A DNA stretch of 64,000 nt from Agapetus fuscipes. Lineage: Eukaryota > Arthropoda > Insecta > Trichoptera > Glossosomatidae. The position numbers were made by a program, and so were the translations under genes. Positions 821-63,472 of this stretch are shown piece after piece. The notes below the pieces were generated by a model. The model saw only the letters and a list, made by a program, of their open reading frames with translations. It made no database searches and was not told the DNA's origin. The DNA is taken from positions 15,313,960-15,377,959 of the forward strand of contig OX637333.1 in NCBI GenBank assembly GCA_951799405.1, written 5' to 3'. Position 1 is the stretch's first letter; each line of letters opens with the position of its first letter.

Positions 821-2995
821 ATGACTGAAAAGGGCTTTGAAAAGGCTCAATCTGACAATTTACCGGAGGTCGATGCTATGATGATGTATGTGTATTTCTC
901 GAAGAACATGGACTTCATAAGTTCAGAATTACGTGGAGTAAAAGCTTCAAGGTAAGAAAAATAGTTCTGTTTATGTGTCAAAGTTCATTTAGATTCATAA
1001 ATTCTCCAGATATTATACGTTTTCATGCAAACATCTTTCCTTTACAAATTCTGTAACCTTACTTATTCAAATTGCAATACTGCCATGTCATAGCTTCTAA
1101 ATCTTAATATAAAGGCTAAATTAATTGTTTATAAAGCTTACTTCCTTTATTACATCATTAAAAGTTGTTTTTAATCACATAACCTTACTTTACACCAGTC
1201 AAGGGTTGTGCACTTGCAATATATCCTAACCCTTATTCCGTTTGTTTGTTTTTAGATCTTCGAGAGAAAGTTACGGAGACAATGCCATTGGCTATGTGCA
1301 AGTGAAACGCGATGGAGCCATTTGCACTGTTAAGGCCCATATAACACCAGAACACAAAGTCCGTACAAAAGCATACGCGGTAACCTTGATCACCGATGAG
1401 GAACAAGGCACTGTTGAATCATGTGTCTGTGAAGATTGTCCAGCATCTCAAGGTCAGTAATGAATATTAGATTCACGAGGTGTCATGATTCCTTTGTAAA
1501 AGCAATAAAATGTAAGAGATCTAATTAGCAGGCTCGGCTCACCAAATAATTGCTATCTGTAATCTAAGATGCAAAGATATGTTAACATTTAAGATTCATG
1601 CCCACAAACGGACACGTGTAAGTTCGCGCTTACGAATTCTGTATGTGTACCTACTTACAAATTAAAATCCAATCTTCAAACGAACATACATCCTGCTACT
1701 GGTGCCGACCTTCCCTGAAACGGGCGACATTGGCAAAGTGAAACATATTTTATAGTGTGGGCGGTCAGACTCATATCAATCCATTGGCCAACATTATGGC
1801 CTTGCTGACTGCAAATATTTTTTCTTTTTAATTTCATTATTTTTCTAAAAAAAACAATATTTTGTGAAAAAATATTCCAATTTTTACTTAAAATTTATGT
1901 CAACAAAATAAGTGAATATCTTTTATTAATTCATCAATATATAAAGTATTAAAGCAGAGGTCTACATTATTTGCATCTGTATTATTCAAAATGAAACATT
2001 TTTTTTATTTTTACTCTCTTACAGGAGGTTGCAAGCATGCAGTAGCCTTTCTGTCATGGGTGCATCGTCGCAGCGAAGAGCCAGCAAAGACAGAAGTGAA
2101 ATGTTACTGGAAGCGGTCAAAGATGGCAGAGATAGGCTCAGCTGTGAAATTCATAAAATGTAGGGATTTAGGAGAACTTAAAACTTTCACAGCTGGGCCT
2201 TCGAGTAACGGAAAGTTTTTGGCATCCGTCGTTAAAGCAACGAAGGAAGCTGACGTCAAGGATGTCCTCCTTATGAAGTATTTTAAGGAGGGCAATCCTA
2301 TAGAATCCCTTAGCATCCATAGATTAATGGAGGAATTTATAGACGATGGAAAAGGCACGACCCCTCAGCAATTTCAAACATACTGTGAAAATAGAATGAG
2401 TGTTGAGGCGTGCAACGAGGCAGCCAAGGAAACTCTGGAGCAGGCTGATTGCACTCTTTGGTACGAGTTGAGGTATGGGAGAATCACAGCATCCAAGATC
2501 CATGAAGCGTCACGCTGTCACACTCCTGATGGCTCTCTTGTGGAGCAGCTGTTGGGAGGAAAAATTTTTGAGACGGCAGCTGTGACACGTGGCCGAAAAC
2601 TGGAAGAGTTGGTTTTCAAAAAAATCAAAAAGCAATATCCCGATCTGAAAAAATGTGGATTATTGCTATCCAAGCATTATCCATTTTTTGGAGCTTCTCC
2701 TGATGGAGTATCTCAAGAATATGTACTTGAGATAAAATGTCCAAGCACCGAAAAATGGATGGAGAAATATTTTGTCAAAGACAAACCCACTCCGAAATTC
2801 TTTGCACAAATCCAAATGCAAATGCATTTTACAAAAAAGAAAAGAGGAATATTCTGTGTTGCCAAACCGGATTTTGAAAAGAGTTGTGAGACAGTTGAAT
2901 GCACTGTGGAGTATGATGAAAATTATTGTTTAGATTTAATGGAAAAAGCATGTGAATTTTGGACTAAAACATTATTTTTTAGATTATTTCAATAA
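821..2995 (+). CDS. SWIM zinc finger + YqaJ-type nuclease, transposon-encoded (3 exons)
   Basis: I read three exons, 821-951, 1256-1452 and 2025-2995, joined at AG|GTAAG...TTTAG and AG|GTCAG...ACAG junctions with phases that match (2 then 1), giving 432 residues. The exon 2-3 junction rebuilds a SWIM zinc finger (CVC...CKH), which neither exon has alone; this supports the splice. Exon 3 holds a YqaJ/lambda-exonuclease-like PD-(D/E)XK fold: RITASK, then G-R-x-L-E-E, GASPDG, LEIKCP and QIQMQM, the usual order of catalytic and binding motifs. The predicted role is a DNA nuclease working with the DDE transposase encoded in convergent orientation downstream. A TATAAAG stands at about 786, and AATAAA overlaps the stop codon at 2991-2996. 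Intron 2 contains a family A repeat. No in-frame stop is seen. Confidence 0.82.
1555..1782 (-). repeat. Family A SINE-like repeat in intron 2 of the nuclease gene
   Basis: This is a minus-strand family A copy: tail side TCTAAGATGCAAAGATAT at the left, then the GACACGTGTAAG/CGCGCTTAC block, and the CCTTCCCTGAAAC...GGCAAAGTGAAA block. It sits wholly inside the intron, so it need not harm splicing. Confidence 0.8.
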
Positions 2996-3107
2996 ATGTT
3001 TTATTTTATATGAATTAATTTTTATCTGTAATGTTGATCTGCTATTCTTGTTCTTATTCTCTCAACATTCTGAATAATTATATACTTGAGAATGTTATTT
3101 ATTGTTT

Positions 3108-3360
3108 GTATCCCTTGACTTATAGGTTGGTATGACGCTGAACACCCATGCTGTAAAAAATGGTTCACTTTGCCAATAAAAGGACGGCAAAAGTTGCTGG
3201 GCTTTTGTTCATTTGAGTATTCATTTATAATATGATTTTTGAATTGTAAGTACACATGCAGCATTTGTAAGCGAGAACTTACACTTGTCTGTTTGTGGGT
3301 GTGTATTTAATAGGAACTTTAAATGTTTATGTATATTTTCAACCTAGATTACATTAGACT
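3108..3360 (+). repeat. Family A SINE-like repeat
   Basis: The copy starts with CCTTGACTTATAGGTTGGTA and includes AAAAATGGTTCACTTTGCCA, a stretch with CATGCAGCATTTGTAAGCG, and a tail resembling CTAGATTACATTAGA. It lies just beyond the nuclease gene's polyadenylation signal. Confidence 0.85.
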
Positions 3361-3527
3361 TTATGTATTACACTGTGGGTACTTTGAAAAGTATAGCTAT
3401 AAGGTGTTTTAATGCATATTTACCAAAGTCTAACAATTTTAAAGTATAGTTATTTATGTATTTTATAACTGCTGTTTCTTAACTACTTTTTTATATTTGA
3501 TATATGTGATAACTACTTTGTTAACAA

Positions 3528-3735
3528 AAGGTTCACTTGCCAATATTACCTCTGTTCCAGGGAAGAGCGTCAAGTTTAAGGGCTTGTGCATTCAGTTTAA
3601 ATTTGGGTCTTTATTTTGTTAATGAACATGCAGCATATTATGTAAACATTAACTAACACAATAAGCCTGCTTATAGAAATGTATTTAATATGAATCATAA
3701 AGTCATGTGTATCTTTACCATTTAGATTATAATGT
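3528..3735 (+). repeat. Family A SINE-like repeat, degenerate
   Basis: A more diverged copy: GGTTCACTTGCCAATATTAC, CAGGGAAGAGCGTCAAG, AACATGCAGCATATTATGTA, then a tail TTTAGATTATAATG. The first ~50 bases of the family consensus are missing or unrecognisable. Confidence 0.6.
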
Positions 3736-3983
3736 AAAAATGCACTACTTAACAATACCTGGTATTGGAGTTTTTCATATGTTCTTATTATGTAGGTATC
3801 ATCTTTCTGTTGGTTTTTCTAATAAAAATAAAGAAGTTGTTGATTGAAGTGTACTTTATTAATAAAAAAGGCTTTCCATTATTAATACAAACATTAATAC
3901 TCATTATGTACATGTTGCAACAGATGTAAAGTGAGATTCAGAAAAATTGACCAGAATAGTAAATGTAACTTAGTAAGCAACAT

Positions 3984-4259
3984 GTGAAATGAAGAGTTGA
4001 ATAGTAAAAATTAGATAAAAGCTATCAAGGTAAATTAAAACACATTGAGATTTAAAAATAATCTCAGTCATACAAGTGAAATGAAGAGTTGAATGGCAAA
4101 AAATAGATAAAAGCCACCAAGTTAAATAAAAACACATGAGATTTCAAAAATAATCTCAGTCATACAAGTGAAATGAAGAGTTGAATGGTGTAAAATAGAT
4201 AAAAGCGACCAAGGTAAATAAAAACACTTGAGATTTAAAAAGTAATATCAGTCATAAGC
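3984..4259. repeat. Tandem repeat, 3 x about 92 bp
   Basis: Three consecutive diverged units start GTGAAATGAAGAGTTGAAT at 3984, 4076 and 4168 and end around CTCAGTCATACAA. They lie between the convergent nuclease and transposase genes, within the 3' flank of the transposase gene. Confidence 0.85.
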
Positions 4260-4339
4260 TCAAAAGCATAAAGGTTAAATATAAGTACTGAAAATACAAA
4301 TTTAATTTTAAAAGTAATGTCTAAGGGTGGCTAACCCTT

Positions 4340-6996
4340 CTAAACTTTGATCAATGATTTTTGCAAGTTGATCAGACCACAAGCAATCACAATAATTTCA
4401 TCGAAGCGATTCACGAGGTTGTGGTCGATAGTTGAATGCATAGTGAGCATATGAAATTCTCTCACTCTGCTTATCACACGCTCTACGTGAATACGTAAAG
4501 CGGCAATTCGCTTTGCTTCCTTAACTTCGTTTTGGCTAAGGGTACTTTTCTGCAGCACGCTTGGAGGGCGAACAAGGTGAGCACCCTTTTCCTCTAAAAC
4601 ATGGGAAATATTCTTAAACCCCCGATCTGCCATCACCCATGTTCCTGTGGCGATGTTGTCGAAATAGCCACAGTCCTGAGCAATAGTAGAGTCGGTTGCT
4701 CGGCCTCCATACCCACATGATAAGAAATTAATGAGACCATCTGGAGTGCAAGAAATTAGATATTTTACCGTATTACAGGCCTTGTATTCAGACCACGTTA
4801 ATGATTGGTGCAGCGAGTTGCCTGGTTTCTCAATTTGAATTTCAAGACAATCAATAATGGAACGGACGTTCCTATATCGAGCTCGAAATGCAATGGGCAA
4901 TTCCAACCTTATGAGTTTTGCAGATGGCCATATAATCAACTCTTTGAGTACCCCTGATAAAATGGGAATCGTTTTCTTAAAAATGCGACATATAGAGGAA
5001 TCTTTATTTATATTTCGAATGTGCTCTTCGCTGGGTTGAAAAATTCATAAACCTTTACCAAAGACCGGTCACTGAAAGGTCCATCCAACCTTACAACAAC
5101 TGGGTCTTGTTTGAGAATTGGCGCTTTCTACAGCGACGACCAAGCTCGCAGAGGGCTCTTGAGGTGTGATACACACAAAAACAGCGCTCACCAAATAAAT
5201 CATCCTAATATTATTATTATTATTTAATCTGACATTCCAAAATGTGCACCTATTACTTTATATGAAAAATTCAACCTAATTTTCTTTAGGCAAATCATTA
5301 TATCTATAATAGGTGCACAAACTGTATCTTGCAGAATAGCCAATACATGGTACATTTCTTTTGGAATGCCTAAATACAGTTGAGGTTGGCGTTGCACAAG
5401 CAAAATATAACCTCTTTTCATCTCAACGTTAAGCGCGTCCATTTCCATATTGTTGTCTTCAAAATCCGAGCCACTACCATAGTCAACAAAAAGATCAAAA
5501 TCACTATCTTCAGGGTCTGAACTGGAAGATGAATAGACAGCTTCCACATTCAATTTTTCCAGAGGAGATTCCACAGGTTTCACCTTGATCGGTGAGCAGC
5601 TACTGTGAGTGGTCGGGGGTCTCACATTCAAGGTGTTGGTTGCTTTGCTCCTGTAGGTGGGTACCATATTCACCTGCACTGCTTTATCCAATGGAGCAGA
5701 AGTCAGATGCGTTGACTGCTCCACAGCATCCACATCAGTTGATGTGGATGCATCCACATCAACGGATGCGGAAGCATCCACATCAACTGATGTGGATGCT
5801 TCAGAGTTTGTAGCGTTCAGACTTGCTTCTCTTAAAAGTTCCATCACTAGCATTTTTCTTTTTCTAATCTCGCCGGTTTTCCTATCCACAGTCTTTTTAG
5901 CTTTTTGGCACTCAAATTTGTGCGGCAAAACTCCTTTCTTCAGGCGCATATTGCTTCCCATCAATCTGCCCATCATAAAGTTTTCCAAGTCGTCCTGGAG
6001 CTGTAAAAATATAAATAACATAATATGAGAGCATGTAGTTCACACAACTACTACAACAAAAAGTAAAAAGGTAGGTTAGACACATTAGTACATGACAATA
6101 TATTATTATTAAGTATGCACACAAACTTCTAGGATAAAAAAGTTGTGATGTCACACAGCCGGGTTGTCAGGGCAAAGGCAAGCTTATATTTTATTATAGG
6201 TTGCTAAGGGGTCTAGTCCCATAGACCTGTGACCTTTGGCCGATGAGAAAATATTATATTTACATTCCAGTCCATTGCTGCCTTCCTAAAGAAACAAGTA
6301 CAAAAAATTTGCTATGTTAACACTTGTTTTTTTATAAATTACGGAATCAAACAATATTTGAGGATGTTTTTGATCATTACTGACAAAAAAACTATGAGTT
6401 TCTAATCAATTTGTTACAAACAAATCGATTTTAATTTTGCTGGAGTGAAGTTTTCCGGGATCTGTTGCCGTGGTCTGTGGGAGCTGGAGCTTCATCTTCA
6501 TCTTCATCACAGTTCTCATCAAGATCTTCATCATCATCATACTTCACGCTGAAGAAGCCCATCGTAGAAATGGGCGAAACGTCCGGAAGCTCCAGCTCCC
6601 ACAGACCACGGCAACAGATCCCGGAAAACTTCACTCCAGCATCATCAGCCGGCCGTGTAAGCCTAAATCTCTGATTTTAATTTTGACACGTTTGACAGCG
6701 TTTTCACATGCCATTTCTTGAGCCACGTGATTTATTTACGAAGGCATGTAGAAATAACATATTTTATAAATAGGTATGCAATTAAATAACAACAAAATAC
6801 TATAACTTACATTGAAATGGTCGCAAATGAAGCGGGTAGATTTGGAAGACAGAAGTTCGTCTCGCTTCATCACAAGACACCATTTTTTGTGGATAGCTGG
6901 ATCGCGGGGCATCCGCAAAAACTTTTTATCCGGTGTTGCACGTGACGTATTTGTACACATCGGAACTACACAATATTTATGATACTTCGAAGACAT
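4340..6996 (-). CDS. THAP-domain DDE transposase (3 exons, minus strand)
   Basis: The exons are 6996-6811, 6000-5234 and 5030-4340, 547 residues in all; phases match (0, then 2). The first junction (AAT|GTAAGT ... TTTACAG|CTC) is strong. It completes a THAP zinc finger: C-x4-C near the start, a central W, C..HF at the exon 1 end, and the closing L-K-K-G-x-L-P-H-K-F supplied by exon 2. The second donor (AT|GTCAGA) is weaker and inferred. Exon 2 is a low-complexity acidic/serine linker with repeats of the STSVDVDA type, ending in a helix-turn-helix-like stretch. Exon 3 carries the DDE_Tnp_4/PIF-type catalytic core: D378 (SIID), D453 (VMADRGF) and E501 (IHVERVI), all present. The protein should bind element ends through THAP and cut and join DNA. 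Confidence 0.8.
5043..5165 (+). repeat. Family B SINE fragment inside the second transposase intron
   Basis: The intron sequence matches the reverse complement of 24890-24990: ACCTTTACCAA...GACCGGTCA, then GGTCCATCCA, and TTGAGAATTGGCGCTTT. The right end runs into GAGGTGTGATACACACAAAA and a TAT/TTA-rich tail like that of the CR1/L2-like LINE at 27840-27900, so two repeat pieces appear joined. Confidence 0.6.
6439..6640. repeat. 55-bp perfect inverted repeat with 92-bp loop
   Basis: The arms at 6439-6493 and 6586-6640 are perfect reverse complements by eye (left arm begins GCTGGAGTGAAGTTTTCC). The loop holds a GAT/CTT trinucleotide-rich run and the hammerhead-like motif. The whole lies in intron 1 of the transposase gene. 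Such paired arms around a hammerhead recall termini of Penelope-like elements or retrozyme-like repeats; that link is inferred. Confidence 0.9.
6542..6589 (+). ncRNA. Candidate type I hammerhead ribozyme
   Basis: The plus strand reads core box CTGAAGA (6549-6555; consensus CUGANGA), an extra A, a stem II GCCCAT (6557-6562) pairing with ATGGGC (6570-6575), then GAAA (6576-6579), and ACGT (6579-6582) followed by C at 6583. This gives the GUC cleavage triplet and a self-complementary short stem III, as in dimeric hammerheads. Stem I can form between CTTC-A-CG (6542-6548) and CGGAAG (6584-6589) with one bulged A. Deviations are A instead of the usual U at position 7, which is tolerated, and one additional A before stem II. 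Activity is not established. It is antisense to the surrounding transposase gene. Confidence 0.6.
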
Positions 6997-53436: not shown

Positions 53437-55262
53437 CTGAAAAATGAGAGAGCGCAGCAGAATTTCCTCACCAATAAAAAATCATTCTGGAGCTGGGTAC
53501 GTGATAAAAACGAAAGTCGCGGATCAACCACCCCAGGCATTAAAAACGCTGAGGGAATCTTGCTGTGGGACGAAAGTGATGTAAGGAAGAGATGGAATGA
53601 ATATTTTAAAATTTTATATGGCCAGGGCGAAAGAGACTATTATGATGTTGAATATAATGACAGCGATGAAGAAATTGTGAAAGAGGATGTGATAATAAGT
53701 ATAAAAGATCTGAAGAATGGAAAAGCTGCTGGGAATGATGGTGTGAATGCTGAGATGATCAAATGTGCTGGGGAGTGCATGGTTGAATGGATGTTTGAAC
53801 TGTGCAAGATGTGTGTGAAAGAGAGTAAAGTGCCGATGGACTGGAAAAAGGCGGTCATTGTTCCTATCTACAAAGGAAAAGGTGACAAAAAGGACTGCCA
53901 AAATTTCAGGCCCATCAGTCTTCTCAGTATAGCTGGTAAAGTATTGTGTAAGGTTCTCATAAAAAAAGTGAGACTGTCTACCGGTCATGGGGTTTCTGAT
54001 ATCCAGACTGGCTTTATGCCAGGAAGAGGGTGTGTAGACCAGATCTTCACTCTCAGACAGATTGTTGAAAAACATCTGGCTGTGGGTCGGAAGGTCTACA
54101 CGGCTTTTGTGGATCTCGAGAAGGCTTTTGACTCGGTGGACAGAGGTATGATGTGGAAAGTACTCCTAAAGTACGGTGTGAACGGCAAGCTTCTGAATGG
54201 AATACGCGCCAAATATAAGAATATAGTTTGGCGTGTGTAAGAGTGGATGGTAAATGTAGCGAATGGTTTGATGTTTACAAGGGAGTACGACAGGGGTGTG
54301 TAATGAGTCCGTGGTTATTTAACATAATCATGGACAATTGTATGAAAGAAGCAGAAATTTCTCATTATGGTGTGAAAGTGGGTGAGACGAATGTTGGAGT
54401 TCTTCTCTATGCTGACGATGCCGTAGTGTTGGCTGATACAGCGAAGGAGCTCCAGATGATTCTCACCAAAATGAATGATGCTTTTAGTAAGAACGGTTTA
54501 AAAGTGAATGCCAGTAAGACGAAAGTATTAGTGTTTGACAGGACTGAGGAATGCGAGGAAATTGAGATAAGACTGAATGAAACAAGAGTGGAGGTCGTGA
54601 AAGAATTTGATTATCTGGGAAGCAAGTTTGAGTCGAATGGGAAATTGACGAAAGAATTGGAAAAGCGTGCTAGTAGAGGAAGAAGTGTAATGGGAACGAT
54701 TGGAAGAATTGCAAGAAATAGGAAACTTACGAAGAATATGAGATTGGCGGTCCACAAAGGTATATTGGTTCCGACATTGATGTATGGAAGTGAGGCGTGG
54801 ACAGTTAATGAATGTGAGCTGAGTAAAGTATGTACGGTTGAAATGGCTTACCTGAGAGCAATGGCTGGAAAAACACTGAATGATAGAGTACGTAATGATT
54901 GGGTGATGAACGAGTGTGGTATAAAAGAGAATATGAGAATGAAAGTACAAAAAAGTACGATGAGATGGTTCGGACATCTCGAAAGAATGGATGATGAACG
55001 ACTAACGAAGAAAGTGTACAAAGGAAATGTCAGAGGAAAGCGCGGAAGGGAAAGGCCGAGGAAAGAATGGTTAGACCAAATAGGTGAGATTGCGAAAGAA
55101 TGGAACCTGCAGAGTGAAAATAAGAGAAGAGTATGTATGAAAAAGGTGATGAATATTGAGGAAATGAAAGTGGTTTGTAAGGACAGAAAAAAGTGGAGGC
55201 GCATCTGCGGAGGTACCGGCCACCCCTAGTGGAACGGCGGCAGGATACAGTAACAGTAACCT
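53437..55262 (+). pseudogene. Family L LINE: near-complete reverse transcriptase with one frameshift
   Basis: The upstream frame (to 54240) holds KKSFWSWVRDKN, IKDLKNGKAAGNDGVNAEMI, FRPISLLSIAGK, GFMPGRGCVDQIFTLRQIV and FVDLEKAFDSVD. A shift near 54230 moves into 54228-55229: VRQGCVMSPWLFNI, LLYADDAVVLAD (catalytic box), YLGSKFESNGKL, TLMYGSEAWTV, WFGHLERMDDERL, RPRKEWLDQIGEI. The endonuclease is missing by 5' truncation. The 3' end carries GGCCACCCCTAGTGGAACGG and CAGTAACAGTAAC. The C-terminal organisation is RTE-like; the clade is not proven. Several fragments elsewhere in the window belong to the same family. Confidence 0.88.

Positions 55263-55936: not shown

Positions 55937-55968
<32 letters not shown>
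55266..55968. other. Unassigned stretch ending in (TA)n
   Basis: No gene is supported. CGTATATAAAAAATATACG near 55709 is a short palindrome. The (TA)n at 55942-55968 is the target of the gypsy insertion. Confidence 0.5.
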
Positions 55969-55972
<4 letters not shown>

Positions 55973-56444
55973 ACGAAATTAGGGTTCAATTGTCTTTCCA
56001 AATTAAAAATACACAGGTCTCCTTTAAAACTTATTTATTTTACACTGTTACAATATTTATTTTCACACTACTTTCTCGATTATTCTACTTGGTTTCGGTT
56101 CACTGATCAGATAGCTTCGATGTGGTTGTTAGTCGCTATGATACTGGCCCGCTCTGCAGGCCATTCGCACCTTTATACTCTGTAGAGCAGTATGATCTAG
56201 AACCAAAGTTGCTAGACGGTTCCAGAGTAATTATTACTTCTCGACTCTTCACGTACTACCTAGAGATACAACCAAAATCCTACCTACAAATGTAATACAG
56301 TATTCCTATAATTATAACAAATACCTACTTAGCCTAGAGAATTCTACACTTATACATAATTATCGATCTTACCTACCAATACTTTTGAGGATTCTTATAA
56401 CTATAACTACCCATACTTATTTCAATATGTATATTTACATAACA
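55969..56444 (-). repeat. 3' LTR of the gypsy element
   Basis: The 476-bp repeat begins TGTTACGAAATT and ends TTTACATAACA on the plus strand. It is identical by eye to 62917-63392. Confidence 0.95.
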
Positions 56445-56458
56445 CTACCCCCCACCTA
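56445..56458 (-). other. Polypurine tract
   Basis: On the minus strand TAGGTGGGGGGTAG abuts the 3' LTR. The tract is also coding: it specifies the last glycines of Pol and the stop codon, which touches the LTR. Confidence 0.85.
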
Positions 56459-59400
56459 GACTGTTTCGTCCCGGAACAGTCTTGACTCTGTGTAGGTAGG
56501 GGCATGCTGATCCACGTCGACACCCTGTGGTCAGGAAGAAGTGGCAGTCCACGGATTTCTCCCCACTGGCTCTCGGCTGCGCTTGCTCGCAGCACACCAT
56601 GACGCTGATGCCGACTCCCGAGAACACTGCTTCAATCATACTCCGGATTATCCGCCAGTCTCGATTAGCGCGGCCGCCACCCATCTTCGGTATTGCCAGA
56701 CGCGCCTGCTGATCCTCCAACATGTAGTCACGCAGCTCAACAAGGCCGTCCCACAATGCCTTGTAGTCCTCTTCCAGGTTGCTGGAATCCGGGACAACCA
56801 GGCAGTATGCTTGTTGACGCCCCTTCGGTAGTCTCAGAGCTCTTCCTTGCGGGCTGCTCGAGGGTTGCGGTTCTCCGAATTTGTATCGGAAGACCCGTGC
56901 AATTCCCCTAGACATATCTAGATCTTCCGGTACACTGCATGCCAGTGTGTGGTCCCTAGTGACCTCAAATAAGTCCTTGTGGACTTCTGTGGTCACTCCA
57001 TGGCGAAACTTCTGCCCTGCCTTCGCGTTCTCCCAAAACGTCTCAAAGGCTGGTGATCTTTCGGATGCGACGCACTGTCGTACTTTTTGGGCTGGTTGGT
57101 CATCATTATTGCCTAGGTATGGTGAGAGGCGATTGTAGTGCACGACCCTTGGTTTTCCGTTTGGTCTCTTTTTTATGCGGTAGACCACATCGTTGATGCG
57201 CTCCAAGATCTCGTACGGCCCGTCCCAGGAACGCTGAAGTTTCGGACAGTATCCTTGGCGCCTCTTGGGGTCAAAAAGCCACACCCAGTCACCAGCTTTG
57301 TACCCCATGCTGTCAGCTCTGGTGTCATAGCGCTCCTTCATTTGATCGCTGGCTTCCCCGATGTTCATGCGGACCTGATCATGGATGTCATCCAGCCTCC
57401 TGCGAAGGTCTGTCACATAGTCTTCTCCGGCTAGGTCTTCACCTGGTTTGCAGCCAAATTTGAGATCACAAGGAAGTCGCATTTCTCGCCCAAACAGTAT
57501 GCTGCTGGGAGTCTTCTTCGTCGTTTCCTGAACAGCCGACCGGTAAGCCAATAAGAACAAAGGCAGATGTCGGTCCCAGTCCCGCTGATGGCTGGACACT
57601 ACTTTGGCTAAGTACCTCCCCACGGTACGGTTCATCCTTTCCACCATTCCATCAGACTGTGGATGTAGCGCAGTGGTCCTGGTCTTGTAGATCCCTAGCC
57701 GCTCACACATTTGCTGGAAGATAGCAGCTTCAAAGTTCCTTCCCTGATCAGAATGTAATTCCAGGGGTACGCCAAACCTGCTGATAAATTCGGTAACTAG
57801 AACTTCAGTCACGGTTACGGCCTCTTGGTTAGGGATTGAGTAAGCTTCCACCCACTTGCTGAAGTAATCCATCACCACCATGATGTACTTGTTACCCTTC
57901 TCAGTTGTAGGAAATGGGCCAGCTATGTCGATGGCAATTCTTTCAAAGGGGCTGCCAACGTTGTACTGACGCATTGGTGCTCGCCTTTTCCTTTGCGGTC
58001 CATTGGCCGTTGCACAGGTTACACATTTTCGACACCAATCTTTGACGTCTTCGCTGCAGTTGATCCAGTAAAATCGCTCTTTCACTTTCTCCAGCGTCTT
58101 CTTAACGCCTAGATGTCCTCCAGAAGTTCCTCCATGCAGCAGTCCAAGGATTTCCGGTACTCGGCTCCTCGGAACGAGGGTTTGCTTTCTTCTAAGTGTG
58201 CCGTCTTCCTTCTCGATCTTTCGTTTCAGAAACCCTCCTTCTATCACTATGGATCCCCATTGAGCCCAATAAGCCTTGACAGTTGGTGATAAGGGGGCGA
58301 GTTTTTCCCAGGTTGGCCTTTCTCCTTCTCGCGCCCATTCCATCACATACTTCAAGTCCGGATCATTCAGTTGGTCTTGCGCCAATTTTTCATCTTGCCA
58401 GTCCTCATCTTCGGTGGTCGTCCTTTGGACAATTGCTACCTTGTCCTCCATCTTGCTGCAATGTTTGCAGTCACTGGCGCATGGTCGTCTGGATAATGCA
58501 TCCGCATTTCGATGAAGCGTGCCAGGTCTATGTTCGGAGTCATAATCATACTCCTGGAGCCTTTCAATCCATCTAGCCACTTGCCCTTCTGGGTTTTTGA
58601 ATTTCAGAAGCCAAACCAGTGCAGCATGATCAGTCCGTAGTGTGAATTTTCTCCCGTACAAGTATTTGCGGAAGTGTTCCACTGATTTTATCACGGCAAG
58701 AGGCTCTCGTCTGGTCACGCAATAATTTCGTTCTGGCTTGGAAAGCACTTTACTGAAGTAACCCAGAACAGTCTCATGCCCATCCTGTATTTGGGAAAGG
58801 ACGCCTCCTATCCCCACATTACTAGCGTCGGTATCCAGGATGAACTTTCCATCTTTTCGTGGGTAGCTCAAGATGGGGGCACTTGTTAATCTTCCCTTAA
58901 GCTCTTCAAATGCTTGTGCGCAGGAATCACTCCAATGGAAGCGAGTGTTTTCTTCCGTAAGCTTGGTGAGCGGTTTTGCAATGTCCGCAAATCTTGGCAC
59001 AAACCTCCTGTAATAAGTGCACAGCCCCAGGAAACTCCTAGTTTCATGTTTGTCCTTCAGCACGGGCCAGTCTCTTACTGCCTTGATTTTGGCAGGGTCA
59101 ACTTCAACTCCACGTTGAGAAACTATGTGTCCCAGGTAATTTACTTGTTTCTTGAACAGGTTACACTTTTTCGGGTTGAGCTTCAGTCCAGCGTCTTGTA
59201 GTCGCCCGAAAACTTGCTCCAGATTTCTCAACTGATGGTTGAAGTCCTTTCCCAGGATGATTATGTCATCCAAGTATACCAGGCAGGTTTCCCATGATAG
59301 TCCTCGCAGCACATTCTCCATCAGCCTTTCAAACGTGGCGGGGGCATTGCATAAGCCAAATGGCATCACGGTGAACTGCCAAAGTCCAGATCCAGTCGAG

Positions 59401-60707
59401 AATGCAGTTTTCTCCTTATCTTTGGCATCCAATTCAACTTGCCAGTAGCCACTTTTCAGGTCCAATGTGGAAAAAATGGTGCATCCTGCCAATGTGTCCA
59501 AGGTGTCGTCAATCCTTGGCAGAGGGTAACTATCCTTTTTCGTAACATCGTTGAGCAGTCTGTAGTCCACACAAAATCTCGTGGTACCATCCTTCTTTTT
59601 CACCAGTACCACCGGGGATGTCCAAGGGCTACTTGATGGTTCTATGATGCCATCCTTGCTCATGTCTTTGATGATCTTGTCAGCTTCTTCCCGCTTTGCA
59701 AAGGGTAGTCTTCTTGGAGCCTGTTTTATTGGTCTCGCTTCTCCGGTGTCTATGCTATGTCGCACTACCTTGGTTCTTCCCAGACGGCCATTAGAGTCCT
59801 CGAAAATGTTCTGGTAGCGGCAGATCAAACTCCTCACTCTCCGTTTGTTTTCCTCGGTTAGACCTTGGGAAGCGTCGTGGACCAGGGCTTCCAATTGTGT
59901 TGACAATTTGTTTCCTTCGCATGACATGTTTGTCATCTGTTGCACAATGGAAATTATCCTCTCACATCTGCCCAAAACAAAACCTTCATTCATTTTAACT
60001 GGGTAGCTGTTCACATTCATGATCTTGACAGGAATGGTCTCCTTTGCGCGAATCACTGTTCTTGCCACCATGACTCCTTTGTTAACATTGTCCATGTTCT
60101 CCGGTTCTATCATACAGATTTGGTCATTTGTACTACTGGAATCCAGGCGGGCACTCACTATCATCTCGGATCGCCCCTTCACTTCGGTATTCTTGGCTAG
60201 GATAACACGTGCAGCCAGTTTTTTCCGTCGTTGCAGGATGACTTCTTCATTTCCAATTTTAATGGACCCTTTCTTTAAATTTAAACTGCACCCAAATCTG
60301 TCCAGTATGTCCATTCCCAATATAACGTCTTCTTCAATGTTGGCCACCAACGTCCGATGATCAAAAGTGGTGCTGCCAATTTGGAAGGTGGCAATCGTCT
60401 CCCCATACACCTGTGCTGACTCTCCCGTGGCGGTGTGCAGAGACCACTTTGTTGGTGCAATCTGCTTACCTCGTGCCACTATGTCGCGTCTCAGAATTGT
60501 CCTGGTTGCTCCCGTGTCCACCAGTAGTTCACGAGTTACTCCATCTATTATGCCATTGATAAAAATGCTGCTGGCTTTTCCTCTCACGGTTGCGACAGTA
60601 GCAGCAGATTTCAGGGCCTCTCCAGCGTGGGTCAACGGTTGCCCCTTCCCATTAACCCTTTCTAGTTTTCCGCAGCCTGTTTTCTGGGTTTCTGAGGCTT
60701 GGGACAC
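56445..60707 (-). CDS. Gypsy Pol: protease, RT, RNase H, integrase, macro-like domain, CCCH finger
   Basis: The 1420-residue frame (probably entered by -1 frameshift from gag) has, in order: aspartic protease (DTGA at 64-67, ILGMD at 129-133); RT (RRLPFAKREE linker, FSTLDLKSGYWQ near 412-423, YLDD at 478-481); RNase H (DTDAS 625-629, RTDHAAL 691-697); integrase zinc finger (H858, H865, C895, C898); DD35E core (D927, D987, E1023); GPY motif (1163-1165). From 1241 to 1372 it resembles TARG1/OARD1-type macro domains: DLFEVTRDHTLACSVPEDL, then MSRGIARVFRYKFG, and LAIPKMGGG. A CCCH finger follows (C1388-x7-C1396-x5-C1402-x3-H1406). By my recall-based alignment, the aspartate used for catalysis by TARG1 is alanine here, so it may bind rather than cleave ADP-ribose. 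Confidence 0.92.
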   Translation of the reverse strand: MSQASETQKTGCGKLERVNGKGQPLTHAGEALKSAATVATVRGKASSIFINGIIDGVTRELLVDTGATRTILRRDIVARGKQIAPTKWSLHTATGESAQVYGETIATFQIGSTTFDHRTLVANIEEDVILGMDILDRFGCSLNLKKGSIKIGNEEVILQRRKKLAARVILAKNTEVKGRSEMIVSARLDSSSTNDQICMIEPENMDNVNKGVMVARTVIRAKETIPVKIMNVNSYPVKMNEGFVLGRCERIISIVQQMTNMSCEGNKLSTQLEALVHDASQGLTEENKRRVRSLICRYQNIFEDSNGRLGRTKVVRHSIDTGEARPIKQAPRRLPFAKREEADKIIKDMSKDGIIEPSSSPWTSPVVLVKKKDGTTRFCVDYRLLNDVTKKDSYPLPRIDDTLDTLAGCTIFSTLDLKSGYWQVELDAKDKEKTAFSTGSGLWQFTVMPFGLCNAPATFERLMENVLRGLSWETCLVYLDDIIILGKDFNHQLRNLEQVFGRLQDAGLKLNPKKCNLFKKQVNYLGHIVSQRGVEVDPAKIKAVRDWPVLKDKHETRSFLGLCTYYRRFVPRFADIAKPLTKLTEENTRFHWSDSCAQAFEELKGRLTSAPILSYPRKDGKFILDTDASNVGIGGVLSQIQDGHETVLGYFSKVLSKPERNYCVTRREPLAVIKSVEHFRKYLYGRKFTLRTDHAALVWLLKFKNPEGQVARWIERLQEYDYDSEHRPGTLHRNADALSRRPCASDCKHCSKMEDKVAIVQRTTTEDEDWQDEKLAQDQLNDPDLKYVMEWAREGERPTWEKLAPLSPTVKAYWAQWGSIVIEGGFLKRKIEKEDGTLRRKQTLVPRSRVPEILGLLHGGTSGGHLGVKKTLEKVKERFYWINCSEDVKDWCRKCVTCATANGPQRKRRAPMRQYNVGSPFERIAIDIAGPFPTTEKGNKYIMVVMDYFSKWVEAYSIPNQEAVTVTEVLVTEFISRFGVPLELHSDQGRNFEAAIFQQMCERLGIYKTRTTALHPQSDGMVERMNRTVGRYLAKVVSSHQRDWDRHLPLFLLAYRSAVQETTKKTPSSILFGREMRLPCDLKFGCKPGEDLAGEDYVTDLRRRLDDIHDQVRMNIGEASDQMKERYDTRADSMGYKAGDWVWLFDPKRRQGYCPKLQRSWDGPYEILERINDVVYRIKKRPNGKPRVVHYNRLSPYLGNNDDQPAQKVRQCVASERSPAFETFWENAKAGQKFRHGVTTEVHKDLFEVTRDHTLACSVPEDLDMSRGIARVFRYKFGEPQPSSSPQGRALRLPKGRQQAYCLVVPDSSNLEEDYKALWDGLVELRDYMLEDQQARLAIPKMGGGRANRDWRIIRSMIEAVFSGVGISVMVCCEQAQPRASGEKSVDCHFFLTTGCRRGSACPYLHRVKTVPGRNSLGGG

Positions 60708-62029
60708 TTGGTGCTAAGGTGGCCCAGCTGTCCGCAGTTCCAGCAGCGTGGGTCTCGTCTTCGAGGTCTCAGACGTTCCAGCACTTTTTCAATTAGCTCC
60801 TCGGTTGTAGGTAGCTTGACCTCCTCTGCCTCGACTGCACGAACCCTGGCGTGGCCCCTGATGGACTGTTTGACAGCCTCAAACTCGAGAGCTTGGCTGA
60901 GCGCCTCGTTCAAAGCCTTGGGATGGGCCAGTTTTACGGCTTGTTGCGTCTCCCATTCCCGCAATCCATTTAGGAACTTGTCCACTGCCAAGCTCTCACA
61001 GATGTCGTCAGAGGCTGTCGGGTAAGCGTCTCGTACCAGGCGGGCGATGTCCATTTCAAACTCCTGGAGGCTCTCGTTGGGCTTCTGCACCCTTGTGTTC
61101 AGCTGCGACTTGTACAGCTGCTCCAGGCACTTGTGGCCATAGCGCATATCCAAGCGCTGCTTCAGCTGCCCAAAGTCACCACGGTTGTCCAGGGGTATGG
61201 CCTGCAGAACCCTGAGAGCGTCTCCTCGGAGCGACAGGCTGAGAACCGAAGCCTTCTTCTGCTGGCTCCAGGCTCCCATCATGGCAGCCGTCTCAAAGAG
61301 GGTCAAATACTCCTCCCACGACGTCTTCCCGTCGAAGGTCGGAAGGTTGTGCTTCGACAGCGAAGGGTCGTCATCCCCTCTAGTGACCCTGGTTGGAGTT
61401 GAGCATCCCTGGTCGGTCTCGTCGTGAAGGCCGCCTTTGGGGGATATTCTGGTGGACTCCATCTGGCACTTGTCAGCCAGCTCGGCACGCAGACGATCCT
61501 CCAGGCTTGCCACACGGGCCTCAATCTCCGACATTGCTCGCGAGCTTTCTGCCACTTTCTTCTCCAGCCCGGCTAGGTTGCTGGTCATCTTCTCCTCCAG
61601 CCCAGTCATCTTCTCCTCCAGCCCGGTCAGGTTGCTGGTCATCTTCTCCTCCATTCCGGTCAGGTCCTCCTTCAGGGTCTTGGCGTTGTCAGCCAACTTC
61701 TCCTCCAGGGTCTTGGCGTTGTCAGCCATCTTCTCCTCCAGGGTCTTGGCGTTGTCAGCCATCTTCTCCTCCAGGGTCTTGGCGTTGTCAGCCATCTCAG
61801 TCTTCAGTCCTGTCAGGTTACTGTTGATGCTGATATTTAGCTCGTCCAAGGCGCGGTCCCCTCCAGACGCCATGACAAAATATGCCGGGTCTTCGCCTGA
61901 CTGCTCCAAGGCCTCTATGAGGCGTGCTTGTAAGGCTGCCTTTCCTCCTGAGGTCTCCAGGTCCCTCTCCAGAAGCTCATTTTTAAGCTCAGTGACTTTG
62001 AGGTCCTTGACGTTCACTTTAGTTGCCAT
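60662..62029 (-). CDS. Gypsy Gag with N-terminal SAP domain, coiled coil and CCHC knuckle
   Basis: The 455-residue protein starts at a good ATG (62029) after an AT-rich leader. Residues about 8-46 form a SAP-type DNA-binding motif (LKVTELKNELLERDLETSGG ... LQARLIEAL). Residues about 80-185 are coiled coil with 11-residue repeats of ADNAKTLEEKM (33-bp DNA repeats at about 61660-61795), then TGLEEKMTSNL repeats. A capsid-like part follows: LPTFDGKTSWEEYLTLFE, LRGDALRVLQAIP. It ends in a basic stretch and one CCHC zinc knuckle (CWNCGQLGHLSTKC). It overlaps pol by 46 bp in the other frame. GGAAAAC just before the gag stop is a possible slip site. Confidence 0.93.
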   Translation of the reverse strand: MATKVNVKDLKVTELKNELLERDLETSGGKAALQARLIEALEQSGEDPAYFVMASGGDRALDELNISINSNLTGLKTEMADNAKTLEEKMADNAKTLEEKMADNAKTLEEKLADNAKTLKEDLTGMEEKMTSNLTGLEEKMTGLEEKMTSNLAGLEKKVAESSRAMSEIEARVASLEDRLRAELADKCQMESTRISPKGGLHDETDQGCSTPTRVTRGDDDPSLSKHNLPTFDGKTSWEEYLTLFETAAMMGAWSQQKKASVLSLSLRGDALRVLQAIPLDNRGDFGQLKQRLDMRYGHKCLEQLYKSQLNTRVQKPNESLQEFEMDIARLVRDAYPTASDDICESLAVDKFLNGLREWETQQAVKLAHPKALNEALSQALEFEAVKQSIRGHARVRAVEAEEVKLPTTEELIEKVLERLRPRRRDPRCWNCGQLGHLSTKCPKPQKPRKQAAEN

Positions 62030-62894: not shown

Positions 62895-62914
62895 CAATTC
62901 CGCACCTGACACCA
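62895..62914 (-). other. Primer-binding-site candidate of the gypsy element
   Basis: On the minus strand, two bases after the 5' LTR, the sequence reads TGGTGTCAGGTGCGGAATTG. TGG start and spacing fit tRNA priming; TGGTGTCA is compatible with a leucine tRNA but this is not certain. Confidence 0.7.
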
Positions 62915-62916
62915 AT

Positions 62917-63392
62917 TGTTACGAAATTAGGGTTCAATTGTCTTTCCAAATTAAAAATACACAGGTCTCCTTTAAAACTTATTTATTTTACACTGTTACA
63001 ATATTTATTTTCACACTACTTTCTCGATTATTCTACTTGGTTTCGGTTCACTGATCAGATAGCTTCGATGTGGTTGTTAGTCGCTATGATACTGGCCCGC
63101 TCTGCAGGCCATTCGCACCTTTATACTCTGTAGAGCAGTATGATCTAGAACCAAAGTTGCTAGACGGTTCCAGAGTAATTATTACTTCTCGACTCTTCAC
63201 GTACTACCTAGAGATACAACCAAAATCCTACCTACAAATGTAATACAGTATTCCTATAATTATAACAAATACCTACTTAGCCTAGAGAATTCTACACTTA
63301 TACATAATTATCGATCTTACCTACCAATACTTTTGAGGATTCTTATAACTATAACTACCCATACTTATTTCAATATGTATATTTACATAACA
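62917..63392 (-). repeat. 5' LTR of the gypsy element
   Basis: The 476-bp partner of 55969-56444. It contains the element's promoter by position; no specific box is claimed. Confidence 0.95.
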
Positions 63393-63472
63393 ATATGTAG
63401 TCAGTGACTATGCGAGTATTTTGTCCATACCACGTGTATGTGTGCTCGTCTTTATGCTTATACCAAGTATTT

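Follow-up and report, generated by a model that had tools for sequence, protein, structure and literature searches.

A captured TARG1/OARD1-type macro domain at the Pol C terminus of an insect-associated Ty3/gypsy clade, with the catalytic dyad lost in an Agapetus fuscipes element

Results

Organization of the Element

The window, i.e. the whole 64,000-nt stretch of Agapetus fuscipes contig OX637333.1 that was analyzed, harbors an LTR retrotransposon with the following features.

62917..63392, minus strand: 5' LTR, 476 bp, TG..CA ends, 100% identical to the 3' LTR
62897..62914, minus strand: probable primer-binding site (TGGTGTCAGG..) adjoining the 5' LTR, 2 bases internal to it, located by eye
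60662..62029, minus strand: gag ORF, 455 aa (ORF list, Pfam, repeat search)
56445..60707, minus strand: pol ORF, 1420 aa, protease-RT-RNase H-integrase-macro-CCCH (ORF list, Pfam)
56586..57005, minus strand: macro domain of the TARG1/OARD1 type, covering residues 1235-1374 of Pol approximately (sequence and structure match)
56790..56792, minus strand: codon of P1306, aligned with the TARG1 catalytic K84
56667..56669, minus strand: codon of A1347, aligned with the TARG1 catalytic D125
56490..56558, minus strand: CCCH zinc finger of the C-x7-C-x5-C-x3-H type, covering residues 1384-1406 of Pol (Pfam, spacing)
55969..56444, minus strand: 3' LTR, 476 bp, paired with the 5' LTR by their shared stretch
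55965-55968 and 63393-63396: target-site duplication ATAT in the flanks of the LTR pair

The paired LTRs, the presence of gag, the PR-RT-RH-IN order of pol and the short target duplication identify a Ty3/gypsy element, and the closest Pol relatives (best 120 of 5271 matches) were also of the gypsy type by their domain sets, with K02A2.6-like, Ty3-I and transposon 412 among the names that they carried. Pfam and a repeat search revealed in Gag a SAP domain, a coiled coil with 33-nt repeats, a Retrotrans_gag domain and a CCHC zinc knuckle. A -1 shift separates the frame of pol from that of gag, and the two genes overlap briefly. The pol stop codon abuts the 3' LTR, and this arrangement, the one examined for the envelope gene that is a trait of errantiviruses, leaves no space for an ORF between the two. 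The identity of both LTRs agrees with the young age that a previous sequence-only reading had attributed to the element.

The Pol Tail Contains a Macro Domain and a CCCH Finger

That reading had also placed a TARG1-type macro domain followed by a CCCH finger behind the integrase, and both assignments were confirmed. The homology of the macro domain to TARG1/OARD1 is beyond chance (E 6.3e-11), and TARG1 was its best match by sequence and by structure in a PDB search, so that its macro fold is closest to that of TARG1; alphavirus macro domains ranked next. The finger shows the expected spacing, with a Pfam score of 17.5 that is below the curated value of 20.5. The C-x7/8-C-x5-C-x3-H spacing was observed in 14 of 22 tails, that of the window included, and the finger is absent from the remaining 8, one of which is truncated.

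The loss of the catalytic aspartate, suggested earlier, was corroborated and extends to the lysine: K84 and D125 of TARG1 are replaced by P1306 and A1347, respectively, and the whole hydrolase dyad is therefore missing from the window element. All positions equivalent to the pocket signature of TARG1 (D20, G43-I44-A45, P118, G121 and G123) are nevertheless retained. Because 18 of the 21 aligned tails hold both K84 and D125, the general picture of the clade is that of an ADP-ribose eraser. A change from erasing to reading, the earlier proposal for this element, would have occurred secondarily in the window lineage, where the loss of both residues could also signal a change of ligand.

Distribution and Phylogeny of the Tail

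All of the 40 loci scored for identity were nearly identical, and the domain was found in all of the 150 loci scored for its presence. The search for related gypsy elements yielded 21 tail-bearing relatives in other datasets, which rules out a one-off fusion and bears out the expectation that other family members carry the tail. Searches of viral contigs returned 25 remote loci (22-32% identity), a single peptide pattern gave zero loci in bacterial and archaeal genome contigs, and a PF01661 search of the element's own genome produced 3 matches, none of them at the element. Several database proteins from a leafhopper and fireflies labeled OARD1-like or macro-domain appear to be transposon-derived, so that gene catalogues are affected.

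In a midpoint-rooted tree of the sampled Pols the tail-bearing members formed one clade. This grouping and the homology of the tails throughout do not favor several independent captures, although P0023, which has no tail, groups with P0019 and P0020, and step-counting alone would permit two gains at that point. In the macro domain tree the tails join the stand-alone OARD-like protein P0129 (UFBoot 97), the grouping of the transposon tails to the exclusion of P0129 has a UFBoot of just 35, and the window element has the longest terminal branch. Because three members nested in the clade (P0007, P0023 and P0022, the last one with a remnant) lack the domain, it is not indispensable, unless those copies are broken.

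The clade also includes an abundant non-autonomous derivative that has discarded Pol and carries the macro-CCCH module fused to Gag, together with a host-derived spliced coding piece, a myosin rod fragment. In three loci (L073, L077 and L079) the tail has no upstream integrase, so that an integrase dN/dS value against the window element is meaningless for them; it was by this discrepancy that the derivative came to light. Because the derivative has no integrase, a role of the domain that depends purely on tethering to this enzyme is disfavored.

Selection on the Tail

The macro domain dN/dS between subfamilies A and C was 0.18, with a bootstrap range that excludes 1, and the selection on the tail predicted by the sequence-only reading was thus supported: the macro domain is under purifying selection in the window lineage despite the loss of the dyad. 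The tail evolved faster than the integrase in the same comparison (dN of 0.181 and 0.060, respectively). When a neutral tail was allowed to drift to 43% identity, the frame remained open in 1 of 2000 simulations. Close pairs gave macro dN/dS values of 0.44 (L074-L075), 0.51 (L039-L071), 0.63 (window-L089 and window-L091) and 0.95 (L090-L091), and L089-L091 differed by 4 nonsynonymous and 0 synonymous changes in the macro codons, but mostly few changes or decaying copies underlie these pairs of weak or no apparent constraint.

Discussion

It is almost certain that an ancestor of one insect-associated Ty3/gypsy clade acquired a host TARG1/OARD1 gene at the 3' end of pol, accompanied in most members by an RNA-binding-type CCCH finger, and ADP-ribose is probably the ligand of the macro domain. 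Most members of the clade would use the domain to strip ADP-ribose off their proteins, off nucleic acids or off the local chromatin, and so to counter host ADP-ribosylation. In the window lineage hydrolysis would have been lost and ADP-ribose bound instead, and the CCCH finger would hold RNA, so that host factors carrying ADP-ribose would be kept away from the Gag/RNP complex or would serve to guide it. Taken as a whole, this sequence of events, from capture through the change from eraser to binder to a role against host ADP-ribosylation, has about an even chance of being correct; counter-defence as the benefit of the domain is a tentative proposal, somewhat short of that, and SIRT6-KAP1 silencing is a case from mammals.

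The macro domain might alternatively be a targeting device that recognizes ADP-ribose deposited on broken DNA or on special chromatin and brings the integration complex to such sites, much like the chromodomain of chromoviruses. Its location immediately after the C-terminal domain of integrase, the expected place of a targeting module, and a fold kept after the loss of catalysis suit such a reader, but the derivative has the domain on a Gag without integrase, and the hydrolytic dyad kept by most tails would be needless for a pure reader, which makes this explanation unlikely. Similarly improbable is that the pocket of the window lineage has given up ADP-ribose and that the domain now helps Gag/Pol to bind RNA or proteins; the absence of both catalytic residues and the long terminal branch point in this direction, and the intact pocket signature argues against it.

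A functionless tail carried along in a burst could account for the three members without it and for the close pairs with no constraint, and in copies so young an open frame alone is weak proof of function. However, this neutral explanation, to which we give very little credit, is rejected on the A versus C dN/dS and is also opposed by the simulated frames, the active-site residues conserved across relatives and the retention of the tail in a derivative that discarded Pol. Nothing was found in favor of a chance resemblance or a chimeric assembly, which the scored loci, the relatives in other datasets, the open-frame simulation and the conserved tail residues rule out for practical purposes.

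Returning to the captured TARG1 domain, a broader and more doubtful proposition is that a widespread insect LTR clade possesses its own anti-ADP-ribosylation weapon, an eraser in most lineages and here remodeled into a binding-only reader, which would act at the Gag/RNA stage and so have let a Pol-less, Gag-fused version become a highly successful element in its own right. If true, insects would use ADP-ribosylation as an anti-transposon mark, and a conserved ADP-ribose eraser or reader in gypsy elements would be parasite-borne evidence that this modification acts on insect transposons. The clade offers a natural series of members with an intact dyad, with the dyad lost and the domain conserved, with the domain lost, and with the domain fused to Gag without Pol.

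Comparison with Known Systems

The domain shares its fold with the terminal ADP-ribose glycohydrolase TARG1/OARD1/C6orf130 (ALC1-like macrodomain class) and, in most tails, its K84/D125 dyad, which the window lineage lacks; the TARG1 of cells is small and occurs on its own, whereas the element version is the C terminus of a gypsy Pol with a CCCH finger. The macrodomains of alphavirus nsP3, coronaviruses and rubella virus are likewise encoded by mobile or infectious elements, and those of alphaviruses were among the viral models matched by the element's domain. The viral ones, however, belong to other macro classes and form part of the polyproteins of RNA viruses, unlike the TARG1-class domain within a reverse-transcribing element described here. 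Chromoviruses are gypsy elements with a chromodomain, a reader of histone methylation, behind the integrase, a placement comparable to that of the macro domain, which differs in its nature and is also retained where Gag has no integrase alongside. Acutely transforming retroviruses carry gag-onc fusions and resemble the derivative in being pol-less with a host-derived spliced coding piece on Gag, but the latter is an insect retrotransposon with a myosin rod fragment that retains the macro-CCCH tail, and no oncogenic role is implied.

No macro domain in an LTR retrotransposon appeared among the matches listed in the open-licence PubMed Central literature, nor is it among the domains named in section 12 of PMC9289625. 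Fixed extra domains in LTR retrotransposons are considered rare (PMC9289625). Such a domain points to host pressure. The same article describes Ty3/gypsy elements of orchids that encode an AlkB m6A RNA demethylase, proposed to counter host surveillance (PMC9289625). These 25-kb plant elements differ in the domain and its mark, in the use of an additional ORF and in an activity shown in vitro, but they are likewise a gypsy lineage with a fixed captured eraser of a nucleic-acid mark.

Structure and Abundance of the Element

The element under study is organized as follows:

55969-56444, minus strand, LTR of 476 bp, paired with 62917-63392
56445-60707, minus strand, pol (protease, RT, RNase H, integrase), shifted to frame -1 with respect to gag
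60662-62029, minus strand, gag (SAP domain, coiled coil, CCHC knuckle)
62917-63392, minus strand, LTR of 476 bp, paired with 55969-56444

The two LTRs are identical in sequence, with TG..CA termini and the target duplication ATAT. The pol stop codon directly abuts the 3' LTR, and Pol runs 224 residues past the integrase C-terminal domain, a tail comprising a TARG1/OARD1-type macro domain and a CCCH zinc finger. The Gag coiled coil (window:61557-61830) is composed of 33-nt and 54-nt direct repeats, and its length might possibly differ among copies. Searching the window's own genome (618 Mb in 148 contigs) with the tail gave near-identical DNA at all 40 loci scored of 1029 candidates and protein matches at all 150 loci scored of 1037 candidates, the matched stretch being stop-free in 141 of these 150. 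Some copies from the protein search (G000 loci) have open frames of 1834-1856 aa, with room for gag and pol jointly, whereas the window has two overlapping frames instead.

Elsewhere in the window, an ORF at 1991-2995 encodes a YqaJ-type viral recombinase/alkaline exonuclease domain (Pfam E 6e-15), and a reverse transcriptase at 53560-55229 (RVT_1 in 54228-55229) adjoins the gypsy element; the ORF at 53560-54240, which overlaps the RVT_1 region, looks by eye like the first part of that reverse transcriptase.

The Tail Is a Trait of One Pol Clade

The sequence-only reading had proposed a search for the tail in other family members; besides the genomic loci, it was found in 21 of the 121 database proteins examined, a set drawn largely from the best 120 of 5271 matches to the whole Pol. 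With the tail as query and only Pol-length proteins considered, one protein matched, P0001. Among the 100 tail-less proteins, 87 end 4-24 residues past the integrase C-terminal domain, and the remaining 13 break off at that point, carry a remnant (P0022) or are extended by unrelated sequence, mostly in long gene models. A tree of the RT-to-integrase core included 113 of 122 proteins, counting the window; nine covering too little of the core were dropped, among them the tail-bearing P0001, P0025 and P0120. All 19 tail-bearing Pols in the tree (18 from databases plus the window) lie in one 22-member clade (support 1.0), and the tail is a trait of that clade. Nested inside it are the tail-less P0007 and P0023 and the remnant P0022, which we read as losses or possibly as broken copies.

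Where the source is a named insect, the tail or tail piece comes from a beetle (Callosobruchus, Brassicogethes, Pyrocoelia or Aquatica) or from the leafhopper Macrosteles, and several of these sequences are short annotated proteins that seem transposon-derived. An integrase end or post-integrase linker is attached in P0126 and P0128 (Macrosteles), P0123 (Pyrocoelia) and P0132, P0139 and P0148 (Aquatica); these proteins, some named OARD1-like or macro-domain, look transposon-derived. Records under the names Erysiphe or Klebsiella probably stem from contaminating animal DNA. The macro-domain tree places a single stand-alone OARD-like protein, P0129, together with the transposon tails (support 97), and the node joining the tails alone has a support of only 35. 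Among viral proteins, the best structural match to the tail is a putative VP8 from Kadipiro virus (BFVD A0A8E0KJF2; Foldseek E 1.3e-10 at 26% identity), which hints at a TARG1-like domain in that virus.

Loss of the Catalytic Dyad and Continued Constraint

In 21 aligned tails including the window (truncated P0015 excluded), the equivalents of TARG1 D20, G43, P118 and W129 are invariant (21/21); in macrodomains the D20 aspartate makes a contact with adenine. TARG1 catalysis relies on a K84/D125 dyad, according to PMC9411070 and PMC7050489, the latter printing residue 125 as Glu. K84 is present in 19 of the 21 tails, D125 in 18 and both in 18. The exceptions are P0016 (R, N), P0018 (K, N, with an alignment gap beside the N) and the window, where the apparent replacement of the catalytic aspartate by A, noted in the sequence-only reading, was borne out and K84 is also replaced, by P. 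In the window's genome, aligned representatives of subfamilies A (the window itself), B and C all lack the dyad. Because they form one clade whose sister, P0003, has it intact (UFBoot 100 and 87), dyad catalysis was, most simply, lost once, prior to the A/B/C split.

The dyad-less macro domain is nevertheless still under constraint. The sequence-only reading had proposed testing the tail for a dN/dS below 1; for the macro codons, the comparison of A with C gave 0.179 (dN 0.173, dS 0.967, Z -4.28; bootstrap 95% range 0.087-0.296, with 0 of 1000 replicates reaching 1); the window gave 0.167 against L073 and 0.200 against L079, two further loci. Constraint is slight in several close pairs of loci (L074-L075, 0.44; L039-L071, 0.51; window-L089 and window-L091, 0.63 each; L090-L091, 0.95; L089-L091, 4 nonsynonymous and 0 synonymous changes), which count against selection, although most contain few changes. 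Inserted copies are free to drift. A simulated neutral tail at 43% identity kept its frame open in 1 of 2000 runs. Between A and C, the integrase is more strongly constrained (dN 0.060) than the tail (dN 0.181).

A Pol-less Derivative Carries the Macro Domain on Gag

At L073 and L077 the tail is in a single frame with Gag, joined via a coiled coil; at L079 coil and tail are present, with the frame interrupted before Gag. Three complete copies were obtained:

L089 (L077 with more flank), 1996-4380, non-autonomous Gag-myosin-macro-CCCH derivative without Pol
L090, 2083-4410, the same
L091, the same

Their LTRs are 99.6-99.8% identical among themselves and 93-95% to those of the window. Each has one ORF (795, 776 or 810 aa between stop codons) in the order SAP-Gag, coiled coil, macro domain and CCCH finger, and the window pol core found no match in the three copies. 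The 118-aa insert is Myosin_tail_1 by Pfam (L089, E 7e-12; L090, E 3e-8, under the curated cut-off), and in the PDB it matched Myosin-10 (E 0.0016) and nothing else within an E limit of 0.01. Its first part matches three separate exons, in the same order, of a multi-exon host myosin gene (L110, contig C13:6405400-6411300) over 52 bases at 75%, 36 at 86% and 101 at 82% (best E 2e-23); a fourth short match was not significant, and the placed matches cover that first part only. Since the intervening DNA is absent from the insert (some pieces being deleted), the insert probably derives from a spliced message, and its identity of only 75-86% to the host exons suggests an old capture, even though the copies themselves are young.

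A check of 12 more places showed that six had the insert and six were ordinary Pol copies, giving insert plus macro domain at 11 places with the five earlier loci. The insert as query matched at 98-100% identity in all 150 places scored of 241 candidates (149 stop-free, 126 within open frames of at least 750 aa). Two derivative copies on the same strand (L094 and L095, contig C33:10381300-10385450) lie only 3.5 kb apart, possibly a tandem with a common LTR.

Possible Role and Comparison with Known Systems

The data establish capture, fold, the dyad in most tails, its loss in the window, continued constraint and retention with Gag. The ligand would be ADP-ribose, and the element might gain by having host ADP-ribose marks on its RNA, proteins or chromatin removed or masked. 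Precedents are KAP1 mono-ADP-ribosylation by SIRT6 in LINE-1 silencing (PMC4695847) and the macrodomains with which viruses oppose ADP-ribosylation by the host (PMC7729036). The chief rival, that the macro domain steers integration, is weakened by the derivative: because it retains LTRs, Gag and macro-CCCH with all replication enzymes gone, the tail is separable from integrase. Gag, too, may belong to the incoming complex, so targeting stays compatible with the Gag fusion. The macro domain would be present on all Gag molecules of the derivative, versus only the frameshifted fraction otherwise.

Among the matches listed in the open-licence literature, we found no LTR retrotransposon described as carrying a macro domain. 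The most similar precedent is the AlkB demethylase of orchid gypsy elements (PMC9289625). Gypsy elements that have captured a host domain are known in kind; what appears unusual here is the predicted change from eraser to reader, together with the Gag-fused derivative.
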